From the NCBI GenBank assembly GCA_037043015.1, contig CM073321.1, positions 3,415,001 through 3,479,000 on the forward strand: a DNA stretch of 64,000 nucleotides, in the 5' to 3' direction. The notes below the pieces were generated by a model. That model made no database searches, was not told the origin of the DNA, and was given only the letters and a program-made list of their open reading frames with translations. This document shows positions 7,484-40,608 of this stretch, one piece after another. The translations under genes and the position numbers were made by a program. The stretch is from Bryum argenteum (lineage: Eukaryota; Streptophyta; Bryopsida; Bryales; Bryaceae). Positions within the stretch are counted from its first letter, which is position 1. Each line of letters begins with the position of its first letter.

Positions 7484-7570
7484 CTATGTGAAACAATACA
7501 ATGATTAAAAAGCTTATTTCTCAAATAGAATGACATGAAAATAAATGGTTGAAATGACAACAACACTTAC

Positions 7571-8439
7571 CAATTGACGTCGTTCATGGCGTTGAGGAGC
7601 TTCGAGCATTGTCCACGACCGTCGAGCATAATACAGTCAACAGAAATGTACCAGTCAGGATTCGTGGAATGATATTTTTTGATATAGCCCATCCAAGCCG
7701 TCACACGGTGATTGCCTTCGTACACGTAGAAGTATTTGTTCCGAAACTGATGGAGATCAAGATCAAAATACAAATATTCTTCGAAAACTTCATTAGCCGT
7801 CTTCCATAGTGGGTTTGACCAAATGGTATCGTCTTCTCGGACCATGAAGTCCTTACCGTCGACGTTGAATGGAGACACGTACAAGACTCGATCTCCATTA
7901 CCATACCCTTTTACGAACTCGTTTGCCAGCATCTCCAAGTCGGAACTGACTATCGGGCGCACCTTCGGGTAGATCTTGAGTCGACAAAGTGGAATCATGA
8001 GACGAGATTTCTTAATTGGTTTGGTGCGAAGGTCGAGGAGGATTTTGTTGTAGTCACTCTTCTATAACAACCCCATCTCATTTGCACTCCACATGGGGTC
8101 CTTGTTCTCCAAATGGGGTGGCATGTGAACGATGCCAAATTCAACCCTACCAGGAGGCTTGGCGAGGTGTTTGTCGTTCGAATGCGGTGCGTCTTCCGTC
8201 GCCTCTCTTGTCGTGCCTTCATCCTCAACAGGTTGATTTAGTCTTAGAGTTGGGCTGATCGGGGGATGGGGCACCCGAAGAAACATCGTCATCCAAATCA
8301 ACAAACTCAGGGATAGTAGGTTGCTTATCCAGTTGGGGAGTACTTGACCCAACTCTACGAGTGCTCTCGATGAAGGTGATACTTGGTCCGCCACAGGAAC
8401 CTCGGATAATGTCATCTGAAAGAGTATAAAGTAGAGCAA
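7571..8439 (-). pseudogene. Unit A, ParB/sulfiredoxin-like N-terminal exon
   Basis: Reads IPLCRLKIYPKVRPIVSSDL, and about 110 residues later YVYEGNHRVTAWMGYIKKY. GNHR with its surroundings is the ParB/sulfiredoxin signature (DGxHRxxA). The exon ends NDVNW with the last codon split by a donor (AATTG|GTAAG), the same split as in unit C near 45,356. An in-frame TAG at 8,062-8,064 separates the ParB core from an acidic upstream stretch; an acceptor-like TTTCAG precedes an ATG at about 8,416. In bacteria and phages ParB-like domains bind or cut DNA and are sometimes coupled to DNA methylases. A DNA-binding role here is inferred from that. Confidence 0.55.
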
Positions 8440-10026: not shown

Positions 10027-10042
10027 CTGAAATTCATCCAAG

Positions 10043-10070
10043 AACACGTAATTCGTTATAATGGGAATAT
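10043..10070 (+). repeat. Left terminal inverted repeat of the 20-kb transposon
   Basis: Begins AACACGTAATTCGTTATAAT and is identical over 28 bp to the reverse complement of 30,147-30,174. Identity stops abruptly at 10,071. The target duplication CAAG abuts it at 10,039-10,042. Confidence 0.93.
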
Positions 10071-10309
10071 ATACTGATTTTGGTAATTAGGGGGACTTCC
10101 ATTTAGATCGATTCTGACCTGATTAGTCACCAAATCACCAGGTTTATACTGATAATAATGAATTTTCTCGATATAAAAGACAATCAAAGAAAGGAATTCA
10201 TAATGCAAGCTAAGAAATATGCTCCCCCAAGAGAAAATTTTATTGATATAAAAGCACAAATACAATTTATTGGTGTAATTGTAGACCTCCAACAGGTAGG
10301 CATTCTATT

Positions 10310-10916
10310 ATCTACCAATTACGACGTGGCGGGGAGGAGGTATCACCACAAGAATCTTTCTTAGTGAATACAGGGTCCTCACTACGTGTGTATTTAGAGA
10401 AGGCAGGTTCGTCCATCTCCATAAGCCCACCACTTCTACGACGCTTCGGTGCACGTCTCCGTAATAGACGGTGAGTCTCAGACGAAAATTGTGTTGGATG
10501 AACTCCAGTGTTTGCCCCAAGAGATAAGGAGCAATGAGCCACAGTATTTGGCAAGGAACTATTTAGCTCCAATCGAGCTAAATAGGCACGGCCATTGACG
10601 ACGGGGTTGCGTAATACAGCTTCACCTTGGGGTGCCGCTGCAACCGAGGTCATCACACCGATTTGATCATGGCCAGTTGCAATAACTGGTTGAATCTGAA
10701 TAGGGGGACTGTCTACTACACCATCATCGTCATTATCCATGTCCTCCTTCGTGTAGTCTACAGCCGACCCGTCGTCCGGAGCACAGTAGATTAGCCGTCT
10801 CCGCATTCGTTCTGAGAAAGTTCCGGAGTCGTCACTTGTAACGGAAGCCTCTGACACCGTCGAAGGACCAATTACAAGATTTGCTTGCAAAGCACATGAT
10901 GGACGTGGAGAGAGCT
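10310..10916 (-). CDS. Uncharacterised nuclear-looking protein exon with an exonised palindrome
   Basis: An open frame of about 195 codons ending near 10,312. An acceptor-like GTTAG precedes it at about 10,917, so it is probably a terminal exon. It is Ser/Asp-rich, with a basic cluster (RLLRRRAPKRRRSGG) resembling a nuclear localisation signal. Residues AYLARLELNSS are encoded by a copy of the TTTAGCTC palindrome at about 10,560-10,585. It is the gene nearest the left end of the transposon, transcribed towards that end. No family was recognised. Confidence 0.4.
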
Positions 10917-11097
10917 AACGTCCAACAGTAGCAACCGGGTTTATAAACACAGCCATTTTAGAAAGTGAGTCCAAGACACTAAGTGCAATGAAAAAGGTAC
11001 ACAATATAAGAACGCATTTAATCATGTATGTTGAGGGTGGATTCATCAATCGATCTACAATATAGCTCCATCTAAGCAACCGATAAACATAAGCTTT

Positions 11098-12108
11098 CTA
11101 GGGCATATACAACTCTGAGTCCTTCGACAGTTCATTATGCGTGGGTCTACGATGGCGCATAGTCTCGGCAAAATTCTCAGGACCGTTCAAATGCACGGAA
11201 AGACATATCTCGCCTATCCTCTTCAATAAGTCGGACTTTGGATCCTCCGGACAGGAATGGTTCCACGGAACAGTGAAAAGTGTGTTCTTTGTGGGAACCG
11301 CAATGCAAGTCTCAGGCTTGGAATCGACAATGAGCAAGTTATCGTCATTGAAATTGGCACCCTTCCTAGGATACAACCGACGCCGAGGATATTTTAAGAG
11401 GATGGAATTTGTCGTGCCGGGGTATTTGGCGAATGCGTAATTCTTCAACAACAGATTATCGCATTGGTTGGAAGCCAAGACAAGTCCAGGGGCACCGTCT
11501 GACTTCGAGAACAAAAAGGAGCAGAGTCCATGGACAACCTTAGGCTCTAGGGTACTCCAGACGTGGATGTGGCAAAACAAATTTAGTAAGCGAAGGAACC
11601 CGGTCAACCCGGGACGACAGTAGACAACCCTACCGGCAATTAAGGTTGGGACGGTGGAGGAAAACATCGGAGGACTATTGGGATCCGGAAAAGACAGGCA
11701 CTCTGCAGGCGTTGGGGTAGACTCAGAGGCCATCGAACATAGAACCCCGTCCAACTCCAACATCACATTCAACCACTTGGGCTTGGACCGTAAAAGACTG
11801 CGGGAGATATGCGTAATGGGTAGCTCGGGCGAGATACGCTGTTTGGGATGTTTGGACGGTTCTGCCTGCAGTGAGGGAACACGTAACAATGGCAAATGGT
11901 ATTAAAACAAGAGGGTGTGTACCTTGCAAAATGCTGAAGTATGCAAAGAACTGCCAGCACTGATTGGGTATTGAATCGCAACACCCAGAGGTAACATGAG
12001 GTGGTTGGCGGGGGATTTTGAAGCAATCGGACGGAAAAAGGTATTCAGAAGGGGGGCCTGGTAGAAAAGGACGAAGTTTAGAGCCTTGTGATGAGAAGGA
12101 CACAGGCT
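11098..12108 (-). CDS. FCP1/NIF-type HAD phosphatase-like protein
   Basis: Main exon 11,098-11,865, with a probable upstream exon at about 11,924-12,108 (donor AAGGTAC, acceptor CTGCAG). The domain begins WLNVMLELDGVLCSM (motif I), continues with RPGLTGFLRLLNLFCHIHVW and STLEPKVVHGL, and has LLIVDSKPETC at motif III, followed by NTLFTVPWNHSCPEDPKSDL. This is the order of an FCP1 homology (NIF) domain. The family dephosphorylates RNA polymerase II CTD or other proteins and needs DxDxT/V at motif I. Here the nucleophile Asp is Glu (ELDGV), and motif III has DS instead of DD, so activity is doubtful. It lies between unit B and the ORF at 10.3-10.9 kb, all on the minus strand. It is most likely transposon cargo or a captured host gene. 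Confidence 0.7.
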
Positions 12109-12421
12109 CACTGAAGACAAAAAGTGATGTGAAATAAATGAGTCTCCATTTTATTGAATGTTGTTTCAATAAGTACAACGATTATAAGTGTACTATGTAC
12201 AAAAAGCGAAACAACATCCAATAATTCGGAGACTACTCGTCGACCTACTCGCCGCCATCGGTGTCGGACTCCTGTCAAACAAGGAGCGCCGGCTTTAAGA
12301 TTACTAAATGCGAGAACTTCAAGACATGAGGGAATAGCAGAGCAAATGCCATCACCATCAGCGATCACAAAGACAAAGAGAAGAAAAGGATAGTAACTAA
12401 CCTCTGGATTTACCAGCGAAG

Positions 12422-14233
12422 TTATAGCCGTCTCCGTAGCAGCCACGGGAGAGTCATGGGAAGGAGCAACCTGTGAATGCTCCCCCACATCCAATGCGAC
12501 AGCAGAGGTGTGATGGTCGGCGTCGGCGCTGCCTCAGACGGGACATCATCCTCTTTTGCCAGCTTCTCCGAAATCTTGAGGGGTATGGGGCGGGGTGCGA
12601 TCTCCGGTTCAGCAACAGTAGCAGGTTGTGGAGGCGCGACGATGGCTGGTGGACTCGCGTTACAGAGGCTGAGGCAAGGTTGATCGGGATTGATGGAGGC
12701 AATGGGGACAGGAATACTAGGAAGTTGGGATAAGATATTTCCGAATGATTGAAACATCTGCTCCATCTTGCCTAGTGCCATGCGGGTTTCGGACTGAGAG
12801 CTCAGGAATGTGGACTCCAATCTGTCCACTCGAGCATTCGCGGCTGCGATATCTGCTAACCTTTGCTTCTCTCTCTCCGCTTCTCTCTCCGCTTCTTCCT
12901 TTGCCTTGCGAGCTTTCTGCGCCTTCTTCTCTTGCCGCTTCTGTGCCCGCTTCTGTTCCTTCGTGAGCACAGGGGCGACAATTTCCAGCTTCACTGGTGG
13001 TTGTGAAGGCTCTCCAGGCTCCTTGGGCTCGATAGGAAGTAGAGGATTATCCTCATCGCTTTTGGGCTTTGGAGAACTAGGCTCCTCCGAGAAGTCATAA
13101 TACCGGATTACTTTGTTATCCTCCGGCTCGTCTTCAGGCTTCCAGACCCCTTTCACAAACCATTTGTCGTACTTCCCCTTCTCAATCTGCCTCCTGTGTG
13201 CGCTCTGCGGGCATTGGGAAGGAGGCGCCAAAGTAGTCTCCTCCTGGGATGGATCAGGAGCCACCTCGTTGACTAAGGTCATGGCCGCGAGGTCAGCATC
13301 ATCAGCGCGGTCATCGTCGTCGCCGTCGCCATCGCTCGAACTCTCAACATCGTCATTGTCTGACGAGTCAGAGCTGTCGGATGATGATGCATCCCGTCGC
13401 AAACGCTCTTGCCCGGGTACTACATCGTCTTCGCCAAAGAGATCCCGGTAGATGAGATCATTTGAGATCTTTGTACGAATCTCCCTTCGAAACCCCGAGG
13501 GTGGAACCCTCTGCTCAACCGGAGTCCCAGCGGCCCCAAGATCGACGACCCCAGGAGACTGCTGGTTTAGCTCGAGTCGAGGTAAATCCTCCTCCGATGG
13601 TCGACCACGACGCAAGCGCTGGGGGGGGGGGCTCTCAATGTCCCCGACGACATTGCAGGCGCCATAGTTGGCTTCGAGCGCCCTCTGTGCTTGAGGCACA
13701 ATAGCGCTTCTGGACCGAGAAGCCTCTCCAGCTCGCGCCTCAGAAGAAGAACGCTTCGCAGATTCGCGCGGGGGGGCGCATGCTGTACCGCGGCCATGAG
13801 ATGCAGAAGACCAAGCTCGACCCCTTCCACGACTCTGAGGGGGAGTACGAGCAGTACCACGACCACGAGGGGGAGCACGAGCAGTACTGGACGGAATTGC
13901 CACCGCAGCCCAGTCAATTGCGGGAGGAGACACGAGAGGAACAGCTCAATCCATGGGGGAATTCATCCCCGCCGGAGAAGAAGGACCACCTTCATCTTCA
14001 CGCTCGTGCTCACAAGCTGAAGAGTCGTCGCTTACAGGCTCGGTGGACTTCTTCTTCGACTTCCTCTTCTTTCCCTTCCCGGACCCTTCAGCAGAAGGCT
14101 TAGGACCGCGATTTACGTATGCCGCGATGTTGATATCGTTGTAGTCCAGATGTTGGTAGTCCGTCGCAGCATTTGTATAAGCCTCCGCCTCGGTCTCGCT
14201 GATAACAACATATGTCTCAGCCTGGCACATCTG
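12422..14233 (-). CDS. Unit B, long disordered C-terminal region
   Basis: Continues the methylase-like part of unit B. The exon starts after an acceptor (AAACAG) at about 14,233 and reads MCQAETYVVISETEAEA, the end of motif I and the following strand. Then come basic and acidic low-complexity segments (GKGKKRKSKKK; SSSDSSDSSDNDDVESSSDG), then a Lys/Glu/Arg helix (KRQEKKAQKARKAKEEAERE), likely a coiled coil, then a Pro-rich tail to a stop at 12,422. One frame is open from 13,933 to 12,422 (503 codons), with a shift near 13,935-13,950. EDLPRLELNQQ (13,560-13,590) is encoded by a palindrome remnant. The region from 12,109 to 12,421 shows no gene. Confidence 0.45.
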
Positions 14234-14275
14234 TTTTAGAAGGAGACAGAAACTTATAAGAAGACTAAGAGGAAA

Positions 14276-14480
14276 TAGCTCGACTCGAGCTAAAAGGCAA
14301 TGGAGAAAATAAAATGATTGAAGAGATTTAAGCGTGAGACCGTTTAGCTCGAGTCGAGCTAAACGAGCATTAGACCGTTTAGCTCGAGTCAAGCTAAACG
14401 AGCATGAGACCGTTTAGCTTGAGTCGAGTTAAACGAGCATGAGACCGTTTAGCTCGAGTCGAGCTAAACGAGCATGAGCA
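14276..14480. repeat. Palindrome array at 35-nt period inside a unit B intron
   Basis: Four copies of the TTTAGCTCGA-N-TCGAGCTAAA palindrome start at 14,343, 14,378, 14,413 and 14,448, an exact 35-nt period, in units of type CGTTTAGCTC...GAGCTAAACGAGCAT. A further copy lies at 14,278-14,297. All are inside the intron between the exons ending KPMLAGI and starting MCQAETY, so a spliced message would lose them. Confidence 0.85.
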
Positions 14481-14504
14481 GTTCCAATTAAAGGAATGGT
14501 GCGA

Positions 14505-15854
14505 GGTACTTACAATTCCAGCCAACATTGGCTTTGTGCCACCCATTATCGATAAAAACTTCCCTCCCGGAAATGAGAACATCTTCAGCACCCGACAATA
14601 GAACTCCAATCGAAGCTCGGTGTGACTGAGACCAAGGTCGTGTTCTCTGTACGCGCCGGGCTTCGAGTAGAGGGGCAACTCTGGAGCGTAGAATACAGAG
14701 GGTATTGCATCCAACACACTGTGAGCATGGCTGCTCTTCTTGACAAGGAAGAGGAGGGGGAGCAAGTGCTTCTCTAAAGCTTTTCCCTCTGCAATGCCGT
14801 TGAAACGCTCGTTGCTGGCAGGCATGTAGTTGGCTGCCTTGCGAGCGTACTCGTCCTTCAACTTCTTGTCGACGTAAACCACTACTTGGCAATGACGGTC
14901 GACGTTGGAGGTGATGAACATCCAGACCTCGGGATTTTTGATGTGAGGATCGGTCACGGTGTCTGCCCACACATCAAGGAATTCTTGGACGTATGGACTC
15001 TCGGTGTCGTCTACTCTACTTCCACTACCAAGGACAGATCGTAAATCAATCAAGCCGATATCACACTTGCTAGATTGGTTCCAGGCGTAGTTCTTGTTCC
15101 AAATCCCGAATTTAAATTCGGAAGAGTAAAAGAGCCGCGTTTAAACAATTGGTGCAGGAGGTTCAAACGTCCCTTTGACATCGCGGAACTTCTTGAAGAA
15201 CTCGCCTGCATATTCCAAAATCTCTGCTGCACTCCTATTCTTCGTCTGCTTTTGGCGGTAGAGGGTAAAGAACGAGTCGCCCGGGACCGAGAGAAGCATG
15301 GACATAGTCTGACGAGTCAGATTGTATTCCACCTTAAATTTCTTCCAGTTGTCGACATGGAAGTGCTACTCGGAGTCGAACAAACCCAGCAAGGGCTTGA
15401 GGTTGTGCAATTCCCTCGCGACACTGTTCTTCCTCTTCCAATTCTCGACCCACTGCTTTGCACTCATACACTGGAAGTACTTCTTCGCAGGCTTCCTCGC
15501 GGCCACCTTGGGGTAGGGCAATGTCCAATCCGGAGTCTCGTTCAGCAAGTGCTGCGCCAACACCTCGAGGTCCTCTGCGTCTAACTGCCCCATTCCCTTG
15601 AAGAACTCCCTCCTCAAGGTGAACTTCTTTGCGGCGGTTTCTCAATCTTTCGCCTGATTGAATGGGAGCTCGGTGTCGGGGTCAATCAGCTCTCCAAGTC
15701 CGTAGTCGGTGATGAACCTCTTCCACAACTCGTAGACGTCGTCTGGAGATGTGATGATCAGGAGCTCGTTGCGAAGGTCGGACGGTCTGACGATCTTGTC
15801 CTTCGCGCTAGTGTTGATGCTCATGAACCTCTTCTCCATAGCAGCCGCGAATGC
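14505..15854 (-). pseudogene. Unit B, middle domain and methylase-like region
   Basis: A single frame runs from the acceptor at 15,855 (GTGCAG|GCATTC) to the donor ATT|GTAAGT at about 14,513. It is interrupted only by TGA at 15,642, TAG at 15,366 and TAA at 15,141. It holds NELLIITSPDDVYELWKRF, a Trp-rich middle (PDWTLPYPKVAARKPAKKYF), CDIGLIDLRSVLG at the motif IV position, and HTELRLEFYCRVLKMFSFPG followed by GKFLSIMGGTKPMLAG. The last aligns with unit C ERGLVIDFGAATGTSVQAA, the SAM-binding motif I. Methylase relationship is inferred from this alignment and from coupling to a ParB-like domain. Three stops in an otherwise conserved frame imply recent decay. Confidence 0.5.
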
Positions 15855-15991
15855 CTGCACCAAAGCCAAACAAATAAGAAACAAGCTATGCTGTTTTAGC
15901 TCGAATGGAGCTAAAACGGCGTCTTGAAAAACTTAGACAAATAATGCAATTTAAGCCAACCAGAAATAGAATAGAACAAGTAATCTCATAC

Positions 15992-17313
15992 CTCATAACG
16001 CTTACGGTTATCTACTTCAAGCGGTGTTTCACGTCGGTGTGGCTTCTTCAGTTTTTGAGGGCGGCCATAGTCTTCCCAAACCTTTCTAGCGCCCATAATG
16101 TTCGTCGCCCAGGAAGGAATGAACGTGCCAGCATTGTTCGTCTTGTTGGCCATGGCCGACACGTCGAGAATCTTGCCAATGTTGGAATGCCACACAACAT
16201 GGGTTTTCCATGTCTGCAGGGCAAGGATCTTCATCTTGTCGACCTTCTTGTTACGAATCAGCTGTTTCGCAGCCTCAACGTGGTGCTGCCCATCGATTAT
16301 ACGGAACCGACAACTTTGGACCAGATCTTCCCAATCCCAAATCTCAGGCTCATCTTTAATCTTTGGCATAATGATGATGGTTTGTCTGGAAGTAACATCG
16401 AGGGAATTCATCAAGATGTTCTTGTAATGCGCTATTCCGGCCGGTTCCAAAGATCGGACGATAAACCTTGGTTCTGCCGGGTCGAGCAGGTTGATCGACA
16501 CGTCAAGCGGATTGTCGCGACCAAAGACATAACACTCTGCACAGTTGTCCCAATAGTCCTTCAGAGACTTCGTTGCATCCTTATATTTGATCTCCTTCTC
16601 CGAGACAGCGACGTTCATTGTAGGGTTAATGAACGTAAGTGCGCTGCCGGAGGATTTGCTCCTCTTGGAGCCAGAGCTGGATGAGATCGGGTTTGGCCGC
16701 TTCGATCTCTGCCCACCTTGACTTCTCTCTAGACTGCCTAGACCCGATAGAGCATTCCCGGATGGAGCCTGCAGCAGTAGACTCCCGGACCGTTTCATCG
16801 GAGCCTTGCCTTTCTTTTTTGCAGTTTCGAAATCAGACAGAGCCTTCCAGATCTGCGCAGTGTATGGAATGCACGATCTCACAAAGGCTTTCGGCGAAGA
16901 AACATTGGGCAGCAATTTTGTGTCGATATGATGAAGCTGAGTGGGATCCACCTTGCCGACCATATAATTGCGGATGAAGTCGTGGGAGAAACGGACTCCG
17001 TTGGGGGGAAATACAATAGTGAAGACGAAACCTTCGACCTCCACTGCTTCGAACTTGATCAGGAGGAATTCGTCTTCATAAGTAAAAGTTCGATGAAGGC
17101 ATCAAGACACAGAGGTAAAAATGCCCCGTGAGACCCCGATTGTTGATAGAAGAAGAAATGGGTCTTGTTCATCGGACGAATAGACCAAGAATTGATGGAA
17201 TTTGTCTTGGGGGTCCACAACCTCCCCCATTGAGCGTCCACAGCAATAGCTGCAAGCGGATCGTCTGCTGCTTCGAGTTGTACTGGTGCAAGGAATCCCT
17301 CCAGGGCTTGCAT
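15992..17313 (-). CDS. Unit B, ParB/sulfiredoxin-like N-terminal region
   Basis: An open frame from about 17,044 to the donor GAG|GTATGAG at 15,991. A leading segment to 17,313 (MQALEGFLAPVQLEAADDPL) joins after a shift or small intron near 17,060-17,110. The ParB-like region runs from AEPRFIVRSLEPAG through RQTIIIMPKI to CRFRIIDGQHHVEAAKQLI, about 60 residues later than the first strand, as expected for ParB/Srx folds. The signature is DGQHH here and GNHR in units A and C. A Ser/Lys-rich linker (SKRPNPISSSSGSKRSKSSG) precedes it. As transposon cargo it may bind DNA; whether it binds the element's own palindromes is speculation. Confidence 0.6.
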
Positions 17314-17644
17314 GTTATAAGTGACCTGTGGATAACAAATTAACAGAGGGTGAATTAGCTCGATTCGAGCTAAATGAACACATTAGGTGAGAACATCGAT
17401 ATGAAGTGGAGTATTATCTCAGGAACAGACTCTTGCTGCTCCGCATCCATGTCGACTTCCATTTCAGGCTCGGCAGGTGCATTCGCAGCCATCTGAACAA
17501 TTCTGGCAGTTTGTTTGGTTCTCGGCATCACTGTCATTCAACAAATGAGAATCACATGTAATATTCGCAAGGGCAGTAGAACATCGTCATTATCTTGACG
17601 ATCAAATCCGGAAAGAACTTTAACATGTCTTGATTAAGTGGCGA

Positions 17645-18755
17645 GATCAATTAGCTCAAATCGAGCTAAATGGGCTTGACCTCAAAACGTGGATCGAAAC
17701 CATGTAGCTCGAGTCGAGCTGAATATGCATGACCCTGAACCAAATAGTAAGTCCATTTAGCTCGACTCGAGCTAAATTGGCTTGACCTCTAATACAATTA
17801 AATGGTCTCGACGAGTAAAATGGGTAAGTTGAGATGAGAAGCTAAATGGGCTAAACGAATTAACAGGCTAATTAGGCCTTGACTTGCAACATGGAAGTAA
17901 GTCCATTTAGCTCGACTTGAGCTAAATGGGCTTACTGCTATGTTTCAGGGCATGCAACATGGCCTTAAGTCCCCAAACGGGGTCCGTGACCATTTAGCTC
18001 GAGTCGAGCTAAATGGGCGTCACCTGCAACGGAGTAGTAAGCCCATTTAGCTCGAATCGAGCTAAATGTGCTTATTGCTCTGATTCAGTGCAAGCCCATT
18101 TAGCTCGAGTCGAGCTAAATGGGCTTACTAATCTGCTGCAGGTTAAGCCTATTTAGCTCGACTCGAGCTAAATGACCCTGACGTCGTTTTAGGTTCGTGA
18201 TCTTTTAGCTCGAGTCGAGTTAAATGGGCTTGACCTGCTACATGGCAGTAAGCCCATTTAGCTCGACTCGAGCTAAATGGGCTTACTGCTCTGATTCGGG
18301 GCAACCCCATTTAGCTCGACTCGAGCTAAATGAGCCTAACCTCGTATGAGGGCCATGACCATTTAGCTCGAGTCGAGCTAAATGGGCTTGCCCTACCACA
18401 GTGTAGTAAGCCCATTTAGCTCAACTCGAGCTAAATGGTCACGGACCTCATATGATGTCAGGCCCATTTAGCTTGATTCGAGCTAAATGGGCTTACCCTA
18501 ATTGAGAGCAATAAGCCCATTTAGCTTGAGTCGAGCTAAATGGGCTTACTGCCCTGTAGCAGGTGAAGCCCATTTAGCTCGAATCGAGCTAAATGGTCAC
18601 GGACCTCATACGATGGCAGACCCATTTAGCTTGAGTCGAGCTAAATGGGCTTACCTATAATCAGAGCAGTAAGCCCATTTAGCTCGAGTCGAGCTAAATG
18701 GGCTTACTGCCCTGTAGCAGGTGAAGCCCATTTAGCTCGACTCGAGCTAAATGGG
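17645..18755. repeat. Palindrome array I, 52-53-nt period
   Basis: About 19 copies of an odd palindrome with 10-nt arms TTTAGCTCGA and TCGAGCTAAA around one base, often extended by CCCA...TGGG to 29 nt. From 18,045 to 18,730 fourteen copies follow at strictly 52 or 53 nt; the first five (17,650-17,995) are less regular. The 24-nt spacers are not unique. They fall into a few families in both orientations (CTTACTGCCCTGTAGCAGGT; CTTGACCTGCTACATGGCAG, near the reverse complement). This is a palindromic minisatellite. Confidence 0.95.
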
Positions 18756-18796
18756 CTTGGTGGTCTTGGAGGGTTAAATAATTTAATGAAGTTAAA

Positions 18797-18890
18797 TTGG
18801 CATCGAGCTAAATGGGCATCGAGCTAAATGGGCATCGAGCTAAATGGGCATCGAGCTAAATGAGCACCGAGCTAAATGAGCTGAAAGTTG
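18797..18890. repeat. Half-palindrome tandem repeat, 16-nt period
   Basis: Directly after array I, five copies of the 16-mer GGGCATCGAGCTAAAT (later GAGCACCGAGCTAAAT) run head to tail. Each contains only the right arm of the palindrome. Confidence 0.9.
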
Positions 18891-19038
18891 AAAATGAGCG
18901 CATTTCAGAAGAAAAACACAAATTTCGAAGCGAAGAACAGAAATTGGAAGACCCCCATTACTCTGCGAGCAACATTCCATAACATTGTGCATTGCAATGT
19001 ACTGAAAATGCTATGAAAATGCCAACTCAATCCAAAAC

Positions 19039-19578
19039 CTAAAAGTGCAGAATCAGCAACTTACAATGAAGCTGGACAAAAATGCCCTGAAGATGCAGCA
19101 ACGATGCTTGCGTCGTAATGCAGGCGAGAGATGGACGAGCCGCAGCAACAAAGTGAAAATACGGAAGAGGAAGAAAAGCGCAGAGAGCGTGCAGCAATTG
19201 AAGGCTGAAGGCGCGGCGAATGAACACAGGAAAGAGGAAGAAGGCGGAGCAGGTGAGCACGAAGCGAGAAGGTGGAGACGGAGAGCATGCGCAACTCAAG
19301 AGAAAGGCGCGAGCAGCAGGATGGACACAACAAGGCGCGAGCAGCAGGATCGACACAACAAGGCGCGAGCAGCAGGATCGACACAACAAGGCGTGAGCAG
19401 GAGCAAGAGAAAGGCGCGGCAGCTGGGCGGAGGGAGGCGGGTGGAAAGAGCTGGCCGAAGGGGGCCACTCCTGCCCTGTCTGCAGCCCGTCCGCCGCCGT
19501 TTGGTGTTGCCCGGGCTGCCCGGGTTGCCCGGCCCAAGCCGACCTGCTTGGGCTGCCCAACCTGCCCGGGTTGGCTGA
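19039..19578. repeat. GC-rich low-complexity block with a 28-nt tandem
   Basis: From about 19,313 to 19,400 a 28-nt unit beginning AAGGCGCGAGCAGCAGGATC is repeated three times with a partial fourth. GGGCTGCCCGGGTTGCCCGG repeats follow at 19,508-19,575. Both strands are open here only because the sequence is repetitive; I do not call a gene. Confidence 0.6.
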
Positions 19579-19599
19579 TTTCTCGGTTTTTTTAAAAAT

Positions 19600-20195
19600 T
19601 TATATTTTTTTTTGTTTTTTTTCGTTTTTGTTTTGTAAGTTAAATTTATTCTATGCTAAAAACTTTGATTAATTGGTAGGAAAGCAAATTAAGGTTAGGA
19701 AACATATTTTAAATCTTAAAAAGGAAACTTATAAATATGATGGTGATATTTATAACTTGTATAAAAAACAAATCTACATGCTACGAGTTTTTTGTAAAAG
19801 ATTTATTACTTTCAAACTTTGAATAATAAGTGAAATGTAACTAAATAAAATACAAGAATAAGATTGTTGTAATTGTATTACTTTATAAGAACCTTAAAAA
19901 TATGAAAGAATCCTTCAAATAATATATACGGGTAACGAGTCTGTATGTCATCATTTACATTAACCCTCTTAAGTTTGTATATGGAAGTGATTATCATTTC
20001 TAAAATACCTAAAGAAAACCATATTTTTGTAGTGAACGTGTTAAAAATATTAAATGCTAAAAGAAACTATTTGTAGAAAGAAATGAGAATTCAATAATCC
20101 GACAAAATTTAAAAGAGTAAAAACAAAAAATGTATGGGCAAGATGAGAGTGTAACTAAGTGGTTTTTATAACCTTAATAGAAAATAAATTCTTCA

Positions 20196-20247
<52 letters not shown>

Positions 20248-23200
20248 ATTTTAACTATGAAAGATTTTCAATTCAGCTTCCTTATAAATCATGAAGGTAT
20301 AATGTTCAGAGATGGAAAATAATTTTTTTTTTGTTCTTGCATAATGATTTGGTATATTTCGTAAACCCAAAAAATCATTTTCTGAAATAGCGTTTTTTCC
20401 ATTTCTTATTTATATTGACTTTGCAATGTTGTCTTAAAAAATAACTTTAATTTTTCAATATTATAACCTCTCAAAAAATTCTTTATATAGAGATATGCAA
20501 AAACTCATTAAAAATAGGAGAAAATTAAAATCAGAATTCTCTGTAAGTTTGAGCTATTCTTGGAAAACAGATAATTCTAAACAAAATTTAAATTTAAATT
20601 AGCATTTATTGCACTTGTGTGCAATATACACGTTCATTGCTCTAAAAGAGCCTCAATCCTAAAGTCCAAATCAATGGTGAATTGTGAAACATGTAATTAT
20701 GCCTTCCTTAGTTTTGTTAGCCAAATCTTAGGCTCCTATTTCAACATAAAATTTGTTGTATTGGCAGTTATTGTTCAATTGAATGTATGAACAAGTAGTG
20801 ATCACCCGTAAATTGCAAAACAATAATTACCATTAATTTTAATTTACTTATTAATAGTATAGGAGAATGATATTTATTTATTCAATTTAGTTTTCTAAAT
20901 CTTTTCATTTACTTTTGAAAACATCATCAGAAGATTTATGGTCTTCAGGTTATGGAACTTAGTTTTGTACATGACGTTTCACTTTTAACTAATGTAATCA
21001 TGAGTAATATAAGCAATTTTAAGTAGAACTGAACCGGTCGATTAATTCTAAAGTGCCTTAATAGACTCTAAATGTCACATGTATGAATTTGTCACCATCA
21101 ACGTTATAAACATTATCAATTACAAACATTGCCTACCTGATTTAGCAAGTATCTAATGATAAAGATGAGTATATTGTATATAAATAATCATACTAATTAT
21201 ATATAAATGTCTAAGCCGAATTACTGTTTTCAAACTCAAACTAGAGACATTTAAGAACTAATTTTAAATCTTAATCGTAATTAAAAACTTAATTTTATCA
21301 TTTTATATAAATAAGTGCATTAAACTGCAGTCTAAAGAAATTCACTATGAATCTGATTATTTATGATTGTCTTAAAATGAAATACATAAGTCTTCTTTAC
21401 TATTATAATTGTTTGAAAGTCTAAATACAAACTTTAGATCTCTAAATGCAAACTTAATATTAGAAGTACAAACTTAGAACCAACAAGAACGAACTTGAAA
21501 CCCGCCAATATAATTTTAAAACCCGCAAGTATTAACTTAACACTTTTGGTCCTTTACTACAAACTAAGAACACTCAAATATTTATTTAGGATCTAAGCTG
21601 AATTCTAGGAATCTAATTTTATGATTTTATTAAAATTAATGCATAAATCCAAAGTTTCAACAATTAGGATCGTATTATTTATACTTTCATTTGTGTCGAT
21701 CATAATTCACGAGGAAACATTAACGACCAATGTGACGGGCGACATTGTAAAATTTGAATCAAGCAAAAAGAACCCCTTGCGCTTCTACTACATCGCCTTC
21801 TATACCGATTGCTTGCATTTCTTGAAAAAAATATGAGGAACAATACTTAACTTGTCTTCAATTTCAATTTCGCATACCTAAGTTTGCATAGGCAAACCTA
21901 AGTTTCTTAAGATAGTAAGATACAAAATTACAAAAAAGATATTTTTGATTCTAAATATTTAATTTTCATTAGTAAAACGTTAACTTATTTCACCTACATT
22001 AAGTAATTTTGTAGGCAATTAGCATATTGTTAGCACGGAATAAAATAAAGTATTTACGCACAATTAAAATTGCATTTAATTTATGTATGACAAATGCCCA
22101 TGATTATTAATCTACATTTCCTCGTTTAGTAGGGAAATATCCTAATGGAACAAAACATTAAAAATATTCACATTCAACTATTAGAACTGTTAGACATTAT
22201 ATATTATTAAAAAAAATAAAATAGAGTAGATTATTCTATTGATAGAATAACTATTATTTAAATATAAATTAATGTAGTAATATAGTATATAATAGCATAT
22301 TCAATAATACTGAATATACCTTATTATAATAAGAAATATATTTTCATACAGTACAATATGGTAAAACAAAACATATTAGTATATTAATCAAAAATTAATC
22401 TAAACACCTTCATCTTTAATCAAAAACTAATACTTAAGTAAAGAATATATAAATAAAATAGTAATGACGATTTCACATAAATATTGTGCTAGGGTAAACA
22501 TGGCACATGTAAACAAATAACGAAATTTAAAATATAATGCACAACCAATACATTTGATTCTCATAGCTTAATATACAAATCTCCTAAAAATGAATGTGCC
22601 ATTTGCAAACATTTTACAGTAGCAATTATCAGATTGATTCAATGAAAGAACCAAGCGCGGAGCGGAATCAAGTAGATCAATCCTACTATGATCTACTGGA
22701 TGAAACGGAGGCTGCACCAAATTGACCGGAAGAAGAGCTTTCAAGCGATGCAAACAAGCGCAAGAAAGAGAATGAGCGCGAGGATTAGTCAAAGTAGCAT
22801 GAGATAGGAGTAGGAGCAGAAGACAACGGCGGAATAGCGAAAGGAGATGTGCGCGGGGAAAGTGGAGAGTGCGCTACGAGATTGAATGCGGTGCGAGAGT
22901 CCTCAATTAGAGTATAGAATTTAGGCTATAGAATTTAGGAATTAAGGTTTTGGTTATTGTGTTAAAGGTTCAGGATTAAAGGTTAATTATTTTTGAAGTT
23001 AAAGAGTAAAGATTTAAAAGTAAACATAGAAGTTAGATATCAACTTTATAAAAGAAAGTGTAAATGCGGATACATTATAAATTTTTGAAAATAACTTTAG
23101 AATACTATAATATAAAAAGCATCTTAGCATAAGAATTGAAGTAAAACAAAATATTATTATGTTTGAATATCACACATACAATACTAAACTTCTAAAATAC

Positions 23201-24960
23201 ATATAGTCACTCAATGTTAACAAGATTGACAGAATTTTAAAGCAATAATATTATACTTCAAATATATTATACTTTAAATATTATACTTTAAATATAATAT
23301 GTGCAAATAACAGACTTGAAAAAATACGTAATAAACTTATAATTTCTCAACTTATTCACTGTCTAAATACTTATATGATATTATATTACATAAATATCTT
23401 GAATATTATGTTTATAATGGCCATTTGTAGAATATCACATTCAACATAATTGAATATCATACGTAATACACCACACTTAATTAATTAGAAACCAATCTTA
23501 TAGAATCACATTCAAATAAATTGAATATAATATTTACTATAACTGTTTCAACGTGTAAAGTTTTAATCTTTTAATATTACACGTAATTTAGTAAATACAA
23601 ATCTTACAATACTTCACAACACCTGTCGATTTTAATGAATTAAGCATAAACACTAGGCTTAAAGGCTTAGCAAATGATAATAGCGTTCAACATTTCACAT
23701 GTTAATTCACCTAAATAAACCTAACAATTGTTAGGTTAAAAATATGGAAGTAAAACAAATAGATCCACATAATTAGTCTATTAATAATTCTACTCCCATT
23801 TGAATACTGTACCACAACTTTATGAACTTTTCGAAGTTTTGCGTACGTAATTTAGTATAAAGTAAAACTATATCATTGAAGACTACATGAATCCAAGGCA
23901 CACAACGAGAACAATTTGTTTTCCCTCTGAACATTTATTAAGTATAAGTATCATGTAATTTAATCATTTTCATGTTTTTATCCCTATACTCTATTTAAGG
24001 TAATCTTGTAAACTAAGGTTCAAATAACAAATGACTCTATCTCTTTAACAAATAGATTGAAGTTTATTTTTCTCGTTGTGTAGACAAGAATTGTGGTAAA
24101 GAATGTTTGCAACAATGGTTAAAGTTTTATTATTATAATTATTGGTTTTAAAAATATCAAAAGTTAAGTTAGTTATGGTCTAGGGTGTAAAGTTTTTCAT
24201 TACGTTTTATGGTTTCATGTAAACTTCAGTAATTTCTTTACTAATAATACATTAACTCGCCATACATTAATTTGCCATAGAAATTAGTTTCTCAAAATTC
24301 TTGGCTCAAATAAAAGCCATGTAAATGAATGCCTTGGTAAAAACTTCGGTAAACTTTACAAAGGATAATTAGTCGAAAACTAGAACCTTTGCATTAAATT
24401 TCATGCCTTATCTTCAAAACATCTTTAAGTTACATCTAGTTAAGGATCATATCACTTAGACTAGACTGTAATTATAGGCCATCCCAAAAAATTAAGTTGA
24501 AATCCAACGGAGGATGACGGAGATATAGCTCCTCAAATATCATCCATTTTGTTACTTTTTATGTTGACAAAACATCATTGCAAATTGAATAGCAAAATCA
24601 TTATGATCAATAAACTTGTCACTATAAAGTTGTTAAGAATCACCTTAAGATCATGATTATGAAAAAGTAAATCATGAAAAACTATTTTTAATTTCACATA
24701 ATTGGCTTGCAATCATAAGACATGCCCCATGCTTGGAGTTCCAATAAAAAAGAAGAACTGTCTTCACTAAAGTGCATTCCATTAATTCATACTTTATTGC
24801 AAAGTTTAGAATACAAGCTAGACTTGATTTGGAGCAAAACCCAAGTGATTTCATCCAAAACGGACCTCGGATAAAGAAGATATGGCTATTCAAAGTTCTG
24901 CCTTCTATCCAAATGTCGTTTTTTGACATTCGGCGCATTAAGGGGTTAACATTCTAGTGC
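19600..24960. other. AT-rich desert inside the 20-kb transposon, no gene seen
   Basis: About 5.4 kb of strongly AT-rich DNA without a convincing open frame, including a (TA)n run at 20,203-20,244. Base composition differs sharply from the GC-rich blocks on both sides. It ends near 24,945 with AAGGGGTTAACA, which resembles the TAGGGGTTA end of the MITE family, so part may be a nested decayed element. Confidence 0.55.
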
Positions 24961-25141
24961 AATATGAGATTATTTTGTTAATTTGAGTTTGGGTTATCCA
25001 TTTTTCTCGCGAATCCGGTTTTTTTTATTACAATTATGTAATTTCTGTTTTTAGAAATATTCCGGATTTCTCGGCGACTTAACTTCAAATGATTTTTACT
25101 GGCCCAAGATGTCCTCGCTCCCCCCAAAGTTCCCAAGATGT

Positions 25142-25238
25142 CCCCGTTCCTCGTGAAGTTCCCCGTTCGTCGTGAAGTTCCCCGTTCGTCGTGAAGTTCC
25201 CCGTTCGTCGTGAAGTTCCTCGTTCCTCCCGAAGTTCC
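25142..25238. repeat. 19-nt tandem repeat
   Basis: The unit CCCCGTTCGTCGTGAAGTT is repeated about five times, with slightly diverged flanking copies. It sits about 660 bp upstream of array II in a C/T-rich tract. No gene is seen from 25,240 to 25,890. Confidence 0.85.
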
Positions 25239-25897
25239 CAACCACATCGCTTTTACTACAAAATTCTCTGACCGTTACTGGCCTTTTTTGGCGCCCTTTC
25301 TCTGTTCAGTTCGTGCTCTTTTTTGGCGCCATTTCTCTTCCCGCTTGGTCTTGCTCTCTCCTCATTTGAGCACTATCCCGCTTTCCGGTCCTGTGCTGCT
25401 CCGCTCCTGTGCTCTTCCGCTCCTCCGCACCTTCGTACTTTCACACATTTGCCCTACGCCTCACCTCCGCACCTTCGCATTTCTGCCCTTCTTCTCCCTA
25501 CACTACGTTTCGCCTATACTCCGTTTTCCATTTGTGCTTCCGGTTTAGTAAATTCTGATTAGGGGTTGGGACTCTTAGTAGCTCTGGAGTTGATGCGCGT
25601 GCTGCTTTTGGGGATAACCAGGGCCTTTGTTGAAGTATTGCAGCTGTCAAGCACGGCGTGAGGGTGAGTTCAATCAATAACCTCAATTTCAATGTATAAC
25701 AAGAATTTGTTGTTGATTGATCATATTTTGCCTTCATCGTGGTGCATTCCTGATGGCAATGTGGATTTCGTCGGAGTAGGTGTGCACGGAAATCGACGCA
25801 AATATACTATTTCACTTGTGCACAGTTCCCAAGAACGACTCTGACTAATTACTGTGCACGAATATCGAGGCAGTGCTTGACTTGCTACAGGGCAGTA

Positions 25898-26650
25898 AGC
25901 CCATTTAGCTCGACTCGAGCTAAATGGAGTTACTGCTCTGATTCAGTGCAAGCCCATTTAGCTCGAGTCGAGCTAAATGGGCCTGACCTTCTTTGAGGTC
26001 CGTGACCATTTAGCTCGACTCGAGCTAAATGGGCCTGACCTTCTTTAAGGTCCGTGACCATTTAGCTCGACTCGAGCTAAATGGGATTACTGCACTGTGG
26101 CAGGTCAAGCCCATTTAGCTCGACTCGAGCTAAATGGTCACGAACCTCAAACAAGGTCAGGCCCATTTAGCTCGAGTCGAGCTAAATAGGCTTGCACTAA
26201 ATCAGAGCGGTAAGCACATTTAGCTCGACTCGAGCTAAATGGTCATCCAGCTTTAACTGCGTCGCGGTGAGTGGTGTACAGTTATCTTGAAGACCATTTA
26301 GCTCGAGTCGAGCTAAATGCTCATTAAGATATTTGTTCATCACGCTTACCTCAAAGCTGTTGAAGCTTGATGACCATTTAGCTCGAGTCGAGCTAAATGG
26401 TCTTCCTCTTTGACATGCTTCGGGGTAAGCGTCATGTATTAAGATCTTCGAGACCATTTAGCTCAAGTCGAGCTAAATGGTCATCCAGCTTTAACTGCGT
26501 CGCGGTGAGTGGTGATCAGTTATCCTGAAGACCATTTAGCTCGAGTCGAGCTAAATGGTCATTAAGAAAACTGTTCATCACGCTTACCTCAAAGCTGTTG
26601 AAGCTTGATGACCATTTTACTCGACTCGAGCTAAATGGTCTTCCTCTTCG
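25898..26650. repeat. Palindrome array II, 53-nt then 79-nt period with 238-nt superperiod
   Basis: Palindrome copies start at 25,903, 25,956, 26,008, 26,060, 26,113, 26,165 and 26,218 (52-53 nt), then at 26,296, 26,376, 26,456, 26,534 and 26,614 (78-80 nt). In the second half the longer spacers recur every third unit: the spacer beginning TCATCCAGCTTTAACTGCGT occurs at 26,241 and 26,479, giving a 238-nt higher-order repeat. The array ends about 120 bp before the first exon of the transposase gene. Confidence 0.93.
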
Positions 26651-26768
26651 ACATGCTTCGCTAAATGGTTATACTTTCTCAATGGTCATAGACATTTCTG
26701 ACTGCAGGTATATTAAGTTACTAGTGAGTTTTCATGATTGTGTATTGATTGCTGGCATTCAAGTAATC

Positions 26769-29701
26769 ATGGAATTGAGTGAATCCGATGGCGACGGAGA
26801 TTTTCAGCGTCTTTTCTCTGAGGTATTGGACTTACTAATTTTGCTTAATATATTTTGTTTTGAGTTTATCCATTCGTACTAATTCGTTATGTATGTGGTC
26901 TTATAGAACTTCGATGGTCCTTCCAAGCTTGTTCTTCTGGACCATTTAAAAGATTGCCCCGGACTGCCCAGAAGTAAATGGGTTACGAAATTTGTGACAC
27001 TTCTCAACAATAGTGGGGTCGTTGTTGGTGAAGGCATTTGTCAGACTCTGGACGCTGAAAGAATGTTAGAGAGTAATGACGAGCCCGTTTGTGAATATCA
27101 AGTAGTTGTGCAAATCGTGAAGTGCTTGAATTTGGACTTCATACCTGCTAAGACCATTTACGGAACTAGGAGTTGAAAGCTCAGCCATGCTATCCATGAG
27201 GGTTGGTCACTACTTGATCATTTACGAGTTGATCAGTTGAACGTCGCTGTTAATGCCCGCGATCATCCAAAGAAGAAGGGGGTGCGACCGTATGATTTGG
27301 GAGAACGAAACCAACGATTCTTAAGGACCAAGAGGGAAGAGGAGCTCTTAATGATTCAGTCAACTTGGTTGCAAGCAAGATTTGCTGCAGCAAGAACTGT
27401 TGCCAACCATTCCCTCGTGAGAAAATTATGGCTCTCCGAAAGCAGATGTACGAGGCGTCGGGTTTTAAATTTAAGTCACATTTCAAGATCGATGTTCATA
27501 ATCGATTTCATCAGACACCGGACGGCACGATGATGGTAACGACTGAAGGCATTGACGTTTGCGCGCGTGCATGGCAACATATAAGTCGAGTTCCGATTTC
27601 AACATTCTACAGGAGGAAGGCAGAAGCTGCAGCTGGACTACGTGCTCGCCACCATGGAAATGTTGGTCAGAAGAAACTACGATTGCATGTAAAGCAAGTT
27701 GTAGCTACTCTGAAGACATTCATTGACAATGCTGCTGATCATATGCCTCACCGGTCGAAGATGTTGACATCTGGTGAGAAGGTTGTGTCTTGGTCCTTGC
27801 CGTCGTCCTTCAGACGGAAGGATGTCATACCCGGGATCAATGACATCAATGAGAGGTTGGGCTTGAAGTCTATCTCTCAGAGCACACTGAGCAGGATTAG
27901 GAGGTCAAAATTTTCTGAGTATTCAAAGAAGGCGCCGGGGATCAACTTTGCTCGTTGCTCAACTTGTGACAAGATGGAGACAATGATCAAGTCTATGGTA
28001 CCTGATTCATGTGAAGTGAATATGTGGATCAAGAAGCTAGAGGAGCATTTGCATCATCAAGAAACGCATCGTGAGTATTATTATTCAAATCGTTCTTTTT
28101 CTATTCAGAGGCCGAGAGATGTCCTTTGTATAATACCTGACAAAATGGATCATGCAAAGACTGCGTGCCCTGTATTTTCACATAAAACAAAGGCAAATGA
28201 TGCATTGATGAAGCTTCCAATTGCTGTGACTGGCATGATTGCGCACGGGCATAGGGATGTCCGGTATGCTTATTATGGGCTCGATATTTATCCAAGTGAT
28301 TGCAATCACACTGTTGGATCTATATTGAAGCTTTTACGAGATCTAGAAGGTGTTCCGACCTCATATTCGAAATCATTATTCGCAAATTCAGGGTCGCTGC
28401 GTTTATTTGAAGCTGTATTGTTTGGAAAAGATGGGTGTTTAAACTCTCTTCTACCTGAAAGTGAAGTTTCTGGGGTGGCGGAGCCTCTACCTCGTGTCCT
28501 GCATGTGCAACTGGACAACGCAGCTTCTGACAACAAGAATAGATTTATGTTTTGCTTTTGGTCTCTTCTGGTACACATGGGTGTGTTCCGTGAGGTATAT
28601 GTCAATTTCTTGTTAGTTGGACACAGAGATATTGACGCCCTCTTCGGACGTTGGAGCATGAATCTCAAAGAGAATGACTTTCTCACACTTCCTCAGTTGA
28701 TGAAGTCATTTATGGACGCGGAGTCTTTGCCGGTCATTCCTCATTTGATAGAGGAAATACCTGACTTCAAGGGTTATATCAAAGACTACATTGGTTCTCG
28801 AGATGAAATTCTAGTTGGGCATTCGGAGGGTCAGCAATTCAAGTTTTACAAGCATGACAATGGATGGCCCATGATGCAGTATAAGATGTTATGCACAGAC
28901 AATGAGTGGTTACCTTCTACTAATGGAGGTATAAAATTGTGGAAAGAGGACCGAAGTACGGGAAAACCATTGTTACCTACAGGTAAGATGAAACCTTTGG
29001 CGCCCATTCCCATGAAGAACCGTGATGACATTGTAAAAGGCATTGGAGGGTTTATTAAGATGTGGGAGACTTCAAGTGCGGAGGACATATCTGGAGAATT
29101 TGGTCGGCGTCATGAATTTGTTATTCGCTATTGGCGAGCTGTGAAGCTTGCGTTGGTTGAGCCTATAGAAGTGTCTTCATTTTTGAAGAACGGTTGTTGG
29201 CCTTTAACTCGAGTACCCGCTACACGAGAATACTTAAATACTGGCGAATTGCGAGAGGAATATGGGCGTGATCCGCACTTTATCGGACGATTGTGTGATA
29301 GACCAAGGGAGTCGTTTCGGGTTGGTCGAGATGTTTTTGCTGGATATTTTGTAGCTCTACGTCCAGCTGATGGGGATGCTCGTCCTTTCTGGATTGCTAG
29401 GGCTTTAACTGATTTCGATGTTGATCACAACTATCCAGGCTGTCTTCAAATGTAATATTTTCGACCTGCATCAAAAAATAGTGTTGTTCAGGAAACCTAT
29501 GCTGGTTGGGACACGAAGCAGACTTTCAAATGGAGAGTTGAAGACACTCACATTCCAGAATGGCTTCATGCTGATGCTATTTTTACGTCATGGAAATCAA
29601 GTGCAAAACTTGGCTCTCGGCGTCCCATTATTTCATTATCGGAGCGTCAAATTGACATCATCAAACAAAGTATTGGGCGGTTCGACGGTGGAGAGGAGTA
29701 G
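26769..29701 (+). pseudogene. DUF7869-type transposase of the 20-kb element, damaged
   Basis: Exon 1 (26,769-26,822; ATG, MELSESDGDGDFQRLFSE) ends at a GT donor. Exon 2 starts at 26,907 after TATAG. The frame is cut by TGA at 27,174, a one-base shift near 27,410, then is open for about 690 codons to TAA at 29,453, and continues in the same frame to 29,701. Recognisable features are CSTCDKMETMI (zinc-knuckle-like), DNAASDNKNRF and HVQLDN, and FLLVGHRDIDALFGRW. Relatives have GHTHEDID at the last site, so two residues are missing. DUF7869 proteins are distantly integrase-like and widespread in transposable elements (from memory). It lies next to the right TIR, as expected for the element's own transposase. 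As written it cannot make full-length protein. Confidence 0.72.
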
Positions 29702-29730
29702 CGTGACATCCCTAGTTTATTTGGGCATGC

Positions 29731-29755
29731 CAATTTAGCTCTAGTCGAGCTAAAT
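29731..29755. repeat. Isolated palindrome copy downstream of the transposase gene
   Basis: TTTAGCTCTAGTCGAGCTAA, a one-mismatch copy of the array palindrome, lies 30 bp past the last transposase codon. Other single copies are at 15,893-15,916 (unit B intron), 17,348-17,375, 10,560-10,585 and 13,563-13,588. Confidence 0.85.
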
Positions 29756-30025
29756 GACCTCAGTGCAATTTGATCTATCAATTTATCGTGTCGTGACTTT
29801 TTGCCAATAGATTCATCTTAGAAATGCACGTAGAAGTCCTACCTCTTATCCGTAGTTAAGTATTGGTATAGTTGTTATGCCTTAAAGTCAACAATTCAAG
29901 TGTTTGTAAATTTTCGGAGTTGACTGTCGATTCCCAGTTTAATTGAGTTTATCGTTTTATTGTGCTCTTTTTGCTAATTGCTGTCAGGATGCATTTTGCT
30001 TTTGCTACTTTCATCATCTTTTGTA

Positions 30026-30113
30026 TTCAGTTTAGCTCTTCAACATGCGCGTTTAGCTCTACATCACGCGCGTTTTGCTCTACAACACGCGCGTTTAGCT
30101 CGATATATATGAT
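30026..30113. repeat. Subterminal tandem of TTTAGCTC half-sites
   Basis: Four copies of a 26-28-nt unit (GCGCGTTTAGCTCTACATCA type; one copy has TTTTGCTC) end about 35 bp inside the right TIR. They share TTTAGCTC with one arm of the palindromes. Subterminal repeats commonly serve as transposase binding sites (known); that role here is inference. Confidence 0.8.
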
Positions 30114-30146
30114 GGAATTTAGTTCGATTGGTTTTTGAGAGTTTGA

Positions 30147-30174
30147 ATATTCCCATTATAACGAATTACGTGTT
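30147..30174 (-). repeat. Right terminal inverted repeat of the 20-kb transposon
   Basis: A perfect 28-bp reverse complement of 10,043-10,070, ending ATAACGAATTACGTGTT, followed by the CAAG duplication at 30,175-30,178. Confidence 0.93.
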
Positions 30175-30319
30175 CAAGTGAGTTTATTCAGTAAAAATGT
30201 TTGTTCTTGAGATGAATCAAGTGCAGAACAGCACCAGGGAGTTGCAAATGAGATATCCTTCACATTCTTGATGGGTTAGAACAAAACTCTTACAAAAGTT
30301 GAACCGATGAGAAGTTTAC

Positions 30320-30553
30320 CTGCGGAGAGCCCATTCCTAGGGTAGCCATGGCTTCAGCACACGCGGTGGAAGCAGCCAATCTGTGCAACACGCGCAGGCA
30401 GCTCAACCACACCTGTTCCTGAGGAGTCTGGTTTCCAAACAAGCTCGGATCCGCATCTTCGACATCCCACTCTCCTTGCCGACCAAGGTTCTCACTCTTG
30501 GCTAAAATATTCTGATAAGAGGCCGAGGAAACGATGCGGCCCTCATTAGCCAT
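30320..30553 (-). pseudogene. GRV2: GRV2/RME-8-like relic, upstream exon
   Basis: Reads MANEGRIVSSASYQNILAKS, ENLGRQGEWDVEDADPSLFG, NQTPQEQVWLSCLRVLHRLA and ASTACAEAMATLGMGSPQ, then a GT donor (CAG|GTAAAC). This precedes IVPLLMKAIGW in plant GRV2. The continuation is at 10,026, on the far side of the 20-kb transposon, so the intron between them received the insertion. Nothing further upstream of GRV2 was found; a repeat copy begins at 30,552. Confidence 0.85.
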
Positions 30554-40468: not shown

Positions 40469-40608
40469 AACTTTTTCATTTCCTTCACTATTTCATTTAA
40501 TACGACAGAGTATATTTAGCTCCTATTCTCTACTACCACTATCACTACCACAAACATAAAAATACAATCCAATCAGATCACCCCTATTTCCAATAAAAAT
40601 ACAAACAA

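Follow-up and report, generated by a model that had tools for sequence, protein, structure and literature searches.

The moss Bryum argenteum carries a family of giant DNA transposons, one member of which (copy B) occupies 20,132 bp of the stretch analyzed here, a 64,000-nt piece of contig C1 referred to below as the window. These elements combine a DUF7869 protein, likely the transposase of the family, with a second gene module coding for a ParB-like/methyltransferase-like protein and an FCP1-like protein, and with arrays of a 21-bp palindrome. The second module recurs in other large copies under coding constraint, together with the palindromes. One protein of the element appears, judging from its predicted start, to have an N terminus resembling the histone H3 tail, and it is therefore suggested that the element manipulates plant chromatin and so avoids silencing. 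A reading of the whole as a giant DUF7869 transposon, equipped with a sequence-specific anti-silencing (chromatin) system of its own, is tentative, and slightly more apt to fail than to hold.

Ends, Copies and Transposase

The initial annotation had described perfect 28-bp terminal inverted repeats (TIRs) and a CAAG duplication, and both are present, with CAAG abutting each end of the element. The genome searched comprises 258.8 Mb in 25 contigs and contains the 28-bp TIR, with at most two mismatches, 464 times in forward and 458 times in reverse orientation; the same pattern read backwards, used as a control, gave no site in either orientation. From 100 exact ends listed of the 922, nine large pairs and one short pair were read in addition to copy B. 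Perfect TIRs in all 11 pairs reflect the selection criterion; the target duplication was no criterion, and a 4-bp duplication identical on both sides is found in 11 of 11 pairs, the window copy included (CAAG, AGAA, TTCT, ATTT, TTTT, GATG, CTAA, TATT, TAGG, TAAT and CTAA, thus 10 different sequences). The 10 large elements measure 13,742 to 21,418 bp. The short pair is a 151-bp miniature inverted-repeat transposable element (MITE) at L058:501-651, within the coding part of another large copy. The family thus consists of 14–21 kb TIR transposons with AACAC..GTGTT termini and at least one MITE, and its ends occur hundreds of times in the genome.

The features of copy B, with coordinates in the window, are as follows.

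10043..30174, no strand: whole element, copy B, 20,132 bp, with TIRs and duplication
10039..10042, no strand: left target-site duplication CAAG, outside the left TIR
10043..10070, +: left TIR, 28 bp, perfect inverted copy of the right TIR
10312..10914, -: terminal open reading frame (ORF), weak or no coding constraint
11098..11865, -: FCP1/NIF phosphatase-like gene, HAD motif I differing from consensus
12245..12271, -: last short exon of the ParB/methyltransferase-like gene, predicted splice model
12402..14230, -: exon 4, methyltransferase-like end, then low-complexity and coiled-coil-like tail
14274..14468, no strand: five palindromes, intron 3
14514..15854, -: exon 3, methyltransferase-like fold, three stops relative to copy A in the window copy
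15895..15915, no strand: palindrome, intron 2
15992..17325, -: exon 2, ParB-like, IDGQHHVEAAK motif, frame broken in the window copy
17354..17374, no strand: palindrome, intron 1
17418..17528, -: first exon of the ParB/methyltransferase-like gene, translated MPRTKQTARIV..., with AT instead of GT at the donor in the window copy
17650..18751, no strand: palindrome array, 19 units, upstream of the ParB-like gene
19642..25042, no strand: AT-rich middle, 26.8% GC, no frame longer than 101 codons
25904..26635, no strand: palindrome array, 12 units, upstream of the transposase
26769..26822, +: transposase exon 1, predicted splice model
26907..29698, +: transposase exon 2, DUF7869 (PF25273), 3' boundary approximate, coding sequence broken in the window copy
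30147..30174, -: right TIR, 28 bp, perfect inverted copy of the left TIR
30175..30178, no strand: right target-site duplication CAAG, outside the right TIR

The AT-rich middle is partly common to the nine other large copies, over 25–82% of its length.

Two other members, the MITE and copy F, give clean empty sites, and in both the target is otherwise unchanged by the insertion. Of the two outcomes that the initial annotation named as refuting, neither appeared: other inverted TIR pairs exist, and the empty sites of these two members are clean. The MITE flanks, joined with one CTAA, align over the junction in all 10 large elements, gapless at the insertion point, where the target has drifted to CGAA or CCAA. 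The joined flanks of copy F (16.2 kb) match 40 of 40 scored places (from 282 candidates) at 92–95% identity, in alignments that span query positions 1–119 or 1–120 (3 onward in one), base 50 being the last before the junction; a full-size member was therefore inserted in a repeat whose other copies keep the intact target. In the window, the left and right flanks of copy B join with CAAG retained once. The interrupted host gene, which would carry the element in an intron, is presumably GRV2, judging from the translation; a Pfam search of the candidate GRV2 exon (30293-30553, minus strand) gave no match.

The transposase ORF matches Pfam PF25273 (DUF7869; E 2.5e-39, 135.3 bits, cut-off 26), and its homolog P0001 reaches 144.6 bits against the same cut-off of 26, in agreement with the large DNA transposon with a DUF7869-type transposase proposed from the first inspection. 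The organisms named among 120 listed of 160 homologs are the mosses Ceratodon and Physcomitrium. In the window copy, the conserved GHTHED is replaced by GHRD, and two stops and a frameshift are found relative to the open frame of copy J; because of these lesions and the mutated exon 1 donor of the ParB-like gene, the window copy looks dead.

Second Gene Module

The left 8 kb of the element, which holds the second module, is more than 90% present at 86–92% identity in seven of the nine other large copies, and two have large deletions. Coding constraint was expressed as the ratio of nonsynonymous to synonymous change (dN/dS), given as medians of pairwise comparisons between copies, with pairs having little aligned sequence or zero silent changes dropped. 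The median is 0.31 for the transposase (0.16–0.55, 45 pairs), 0.27 for the ParB exon (0.18–0.41, 28 pairs), 0.31 for the methyltransferase exon (0.17–0.69, 34 pairs), 0.39 for the FCP1-like gene (0.16–1.59, 45 pairs), 0.45 and 0.55 for the low-complexity parts (45 pairs each) and 0.81 for the terminal ORF (0.47–1.30, 45 pairs). Mismatches by codon position concur, with the FCP1-like gene weakest among the constrained ones. True constraint is probably stronger than these medians, because copies decayed to differing degrees pull dN/dS toward one.

The label "cargo" given to the extra genes at the outset is misleading: they recur across copies under constraint and therefore belong to the element, and by inference they are part of what makes it spread. 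Gene fragments are frequent in large plant DNA transposons (excerpts of PMC6431247), as would be expected if the extra genes were passengers taken up from the host by Pack-type capture and of no use to the element. Such an origin is very improbable here, given the coverage of the left module in other copies, its median dN/dS well under 1, homologs at 54–78% identity in one set and 29–81% in another on other contigs, and a methyltransferase-like part unlike an intact host gene.

The suggestion of a ParB/methylase-like gene stands for its second half: in a predicted model of the protein P0130, structure comparison places residues 235–454 in the MT-A70/beta-class methyltransferase fold, and the ParB match is just weak. 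MT-A70/beta-class enzymes use the catalytic motif DPP[YWF]. At that position most homologs have D-[LFY]-R, in a matching strand placed by eye, and because of this replacement methyltransferase-like catalysis appears doubtful. The FCP1-like gene, also suggested at the outset, is likewise supported in part, by its family match but not by the motif. The ORF at 11098-11898 (minus strand) matches Pfam PF03031 (NIF/FCP1; E 8.4e-6, 26.0 bits) over the cut-off of 21.8, and ELDGV stands at motif I in all seven copies whose ORF start was read (A, B, D, E, F, I and J), instead of the nucleophile motif DxDx(T/V) of FCP1/NIF phosphatases.

Palindromes

The palindrome arrays noticed at first are built of a 21-bp unit, TTTAGCTCGANTCGAGCTAAA, which occurs 24–44 times, with at most three mismatches, in each of the 10 large elements. 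Copy B has 41, and the 43.9 kb of window flanks have none at the same threshold. Perfect copies number 5,878 genome-wide, and the reversed sequence, as a control, is absent from the genome. The 41 palindromes of copy B lie in introns of the ParB-like gene (seven; one each in introns 1 and 2, five in intron 3), in the upstream arrays (31) and elsewhere (three). The palindrome at 13566-13586 is within exon 4, and other copies have an in-frame LARVEL there; the one at 10562-10582 is within the terminal ORF.

Peptide readings of the palindrome are also found in homologs, in 4 of 12 exon-3 homologs on other contigs whose ORFs run past the exon and in 1 of 120 transposase homologs, where 0.095 is expected in all 141 proteins shuffled. 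Subfamily II of the ParB-like gene (L060, L061, L063, L064, L066) carries in intron 1 a different repeat, around TTTTAGGTAGATGCCTGCTAAACGCACATC, and the stretches of it that were read contain no TTTAGCTCGANTCGAGCTAAA; the repeat thus seems to vary from one subfamily to another, with the gene retained.

This distribution bears on the main rival account, a role in transposition itself, in which the ParB-like protein would bind palindromes at internal and subterminal positions, join the distant ends of a 14–21 kb element and have no part in silencing. TnpA of En/Spm, and ParB on parS, are precedents for bringing distant sites together. Palindromes do lie within ~550 bp of each end (10562 and 29734 in the window), and one is kept in the MITE, which retains little else; the IDGQHHVEAAK motif is ParB-like, and the constraint on the ParB-like gene is on a par with that on the transposase. 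Such a role is nevertheless unlikely, since 38 of the 41 window palindromes are in introns or upstream arrays, away from the ends, and since it leaves the H3-like start and the FCP1-like gene without a role.

Predicted H3-like Start of the ParB-like Protein

Histone H3 starts with ARTKQTARK (PMC9677696, peptide table). The ParB-like gene of the window copy and of its relatives opens with a short exon reading MPRTKQTARIV. The start exon was sought in 15 further gene copies, taken from 91 scored ParB-homolog matches (1,035 candidates), which brings the total to 24 copies; these were sorted into subfamilies I–III by sequence, with no tree. Subfamily I (n = 12) has exact MPRTKQTAR in seven copies and one change in five. 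In subfamily II (n = 10), MARTKQTA is exact in six, altered in one and without its start codon in one; one further stretch starts at ARTKQTA without ATG and one stops short of the motif. The two other copies read MARTRTTAR (subfamily III) and MAGIKSTAR. Outside subfamily I, an in-frame stop, separated from the ATG by three codons, lies upstream in seven of eight copies with a start found, so that no in-frame ATG precedes the motif in those seven.

The start pattern (ATG, NCN codon, RTKQTA) occurs at 56 + 55 sites genome-wide, part of which are surely true H3 genes, and at 0 + 0 sites when written backwards. On C1–C7, 70 scored ParB matches extend to the beginning of the ParB exon; in 35 of these, an M-x-RTKQTA start lies 169–366 bp upstream on the same strand.

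The H3-like start might instead be a coincidence, or the relic of a captured histone exon, with a gene function unrelated to chromatin. A match of just about eight residues, the deviating ARTRTTAR and AGIKSTAR, and the half of scored gene copies that have no exact start would fit this account. It is nonetheless improbable in our judgment: the composition-based chance of ARTKQTA at one fixed position is 1.2e-9, a subfamily I copy and a subfamily II copy, compared over the RTKQTA codons, show six silent changes and no replacement, and the motif stands where the protein is predicted to start, which is also its place in H3.

Proposed Mechanism

For the anti-silencing system, we infer binding of the palindromes, use of the H3-like tail and an effect on silencing. 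The ParB-like/methyltransferase-like protein would be the element's own chromatin factor and would bind the palindromes, which would mark the element's own DNA. Its H3-like N terminus may recruit, or act as a decoy for, host readers and modifiers of the H3 tail, and the dead-looking methyltransferase and phosphatase folds may act as modules that bind DNA, RNA or RNA polymerase II. As a net result, element promoters would be kept open despite plant silencing, and transposase would be made. The more specific proposal, that the ParB-like part targets a protein with the exact H3 N-terminal tail to dozens of palindromes, where this decoy or recruiting tail keeps the transposon from silent chromatin, is rather unlikely in this full form.

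Several results weigh against an anti-silencing system of this kind. The likeness to ParB is weak: the PHROG ParB family was matched at E 0.064 and 0.26 by two of three exon-2 homologs scanned, the third matched another PHROG family with unassigned function, and no Pfam ParB match was found among the exon-2 proteins scanned. Foldseek searches with two predicted models, whose mean pLDDT (predicted local distance difference test) is just 67–69, gave no match at E 0.001 or better, and the splice models are predictions from sequence. The FCP1-like gene has single pairs with dN/dS up to 1.59, and its codon positions one and three vary nearly equally. The exact M-x-RTKQTA start is missing in 35 of the 70 ParB matches, and phmmer of exon 1 against the PDB found no histone, as expected for eight residues. 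All 12 copies of subfamily I have an extra in-frame ATG three codons upstream, which would bury the motif three residues inside and therefore makes the start of this subfamily uncertain. Conservation of the palindrome between species is likely, to judge from the homologous contigs.

Comparison with Known Systems

VANDAL elements of Arabidopsis (MULEs) are multi-gene TIR elements whose VANC proteins bind element-specific motifs (excerpts of PMC5735166 and PMC10398659). In VANDAL21, tandem repeats of the VANC motifs occupy the VANC and VANB introns and the region upstream of the transposase, and the motifs differ from one relative to another; VANC proteins carry DUF1985/DUF287 (excerpts of PMC5735166). 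The moss element also has repeats in accessory-gene introns and upstream of the transposase, but its transposase is of the DUF7869 type, its proteins are unrelated, its repeat unit is palindromic and its anti-silencing activity is putative. No MULE transposase or DUF1985/DUF287 was found among Pfam matches of the element proteins scanned.

Fungal TET/JBP DNA transposons (KDZ and others) carry a gene thought to counter DNA-methylation silencing (excerpts of PMC12730594); no dioxygenase turned up among Pfam matches of the scanned element ORFs. Fungal Zisupton has an 8-bp target-site duplication (excerpts of PMC12730594), and that of the moss element, at 4 bp, does not fit Zisupton.

The CMCT group, including Lanisha, has a conserved C(2)C between the second D and the last E, mostly CA..TG termini and target duplications of 2–5 bp. 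The moss element has AACAC..GTGTT and 4 bp, and its DUF7869 alignment is without this motif: past D539 no conserved C-x2-C is found, and C667 is the sole cysteine conserved at 95%. Lanisha is reportedly a cut-and-paste superfamily, proposed by Maumus, McDaniel and Carey in Repbase Reports in 2020, and two of its authors study mosses. Lanisha may overlap with the moss element family.

Bacterial ParB/parS are partition systems. The likeness lies in a ParB-motif protein encoded beside arrays of long palindromes; the moss case differs in being a transposon in a eukaryotic nucleus with weak ParB sequence likeness, and ParA did not turn up among Pfam matches of the scanned element ORFs. With the MT-A70/beta-class adenine methyltransferases (METTL3/METTL14, MTA1, CcrM), the P0130 segment has in common a predicted fold; the catalytic motif differs in most homologs. 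In viral histone mimicry, of which influenza NS1 with its ARSK is an example (excerpts of PMC10208167), a selfish-element protein likewise bears an H3-tail-like sequence; the moss match is transposon-encoded, extends over more residues and stands at the predicted N terminus.

Chromosomal Distribution and Neighboring Features

Contig C1 (44.1 Mb, 17% of the genome) holds 73 of the 91 best ParB matches and 33 of the 40 scored matches of the repeat interrupted by copy F; possibly, C1 is a sex chromosome or some other chromosome poor in recombination. Outside the element, the ORF at 7570-8061 (minus strand) of the window has a ParB-like motif, YEGNHRVTAW, and no Pfam match. Similar ORFs at 40597-43921 and 57798-61510 (plus strand), with YLRRYGVQDGITKLRGLSNWA and YLRNYGVLDGITKLRGLSNWA, are probably copies of another repeat family. 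At 62780-63484 (plus strand) a DUF4218 domain is found (E 6.3e-29); DUF4218 often accompanies CACTA transposons.

Significance

To our knowledge, the ways in which plant transposons evade silencing have been worked out at the molecular level in few systems. No paper was retrieved by a full-text search of PubMed Central (PMC) for DUF7869, and none of the titles and abstract openings returned by further PMC searches concerned such an element or a transposon-encoded H3 tail. The analysis also assigns a structure and ends, a gene set and a target duplication to a DUF7869 element. Both the palindrome and the H3-like peptide are short sequences amenable to direct in vitro testing. If the proposed chromatin system is real, it would be a second, unrelated anti-silencing solution with the layout of VANDAL/VANC, plus a tail that copies the start of H3, and would represent histone mimicry encoded and addressed by a transposon.

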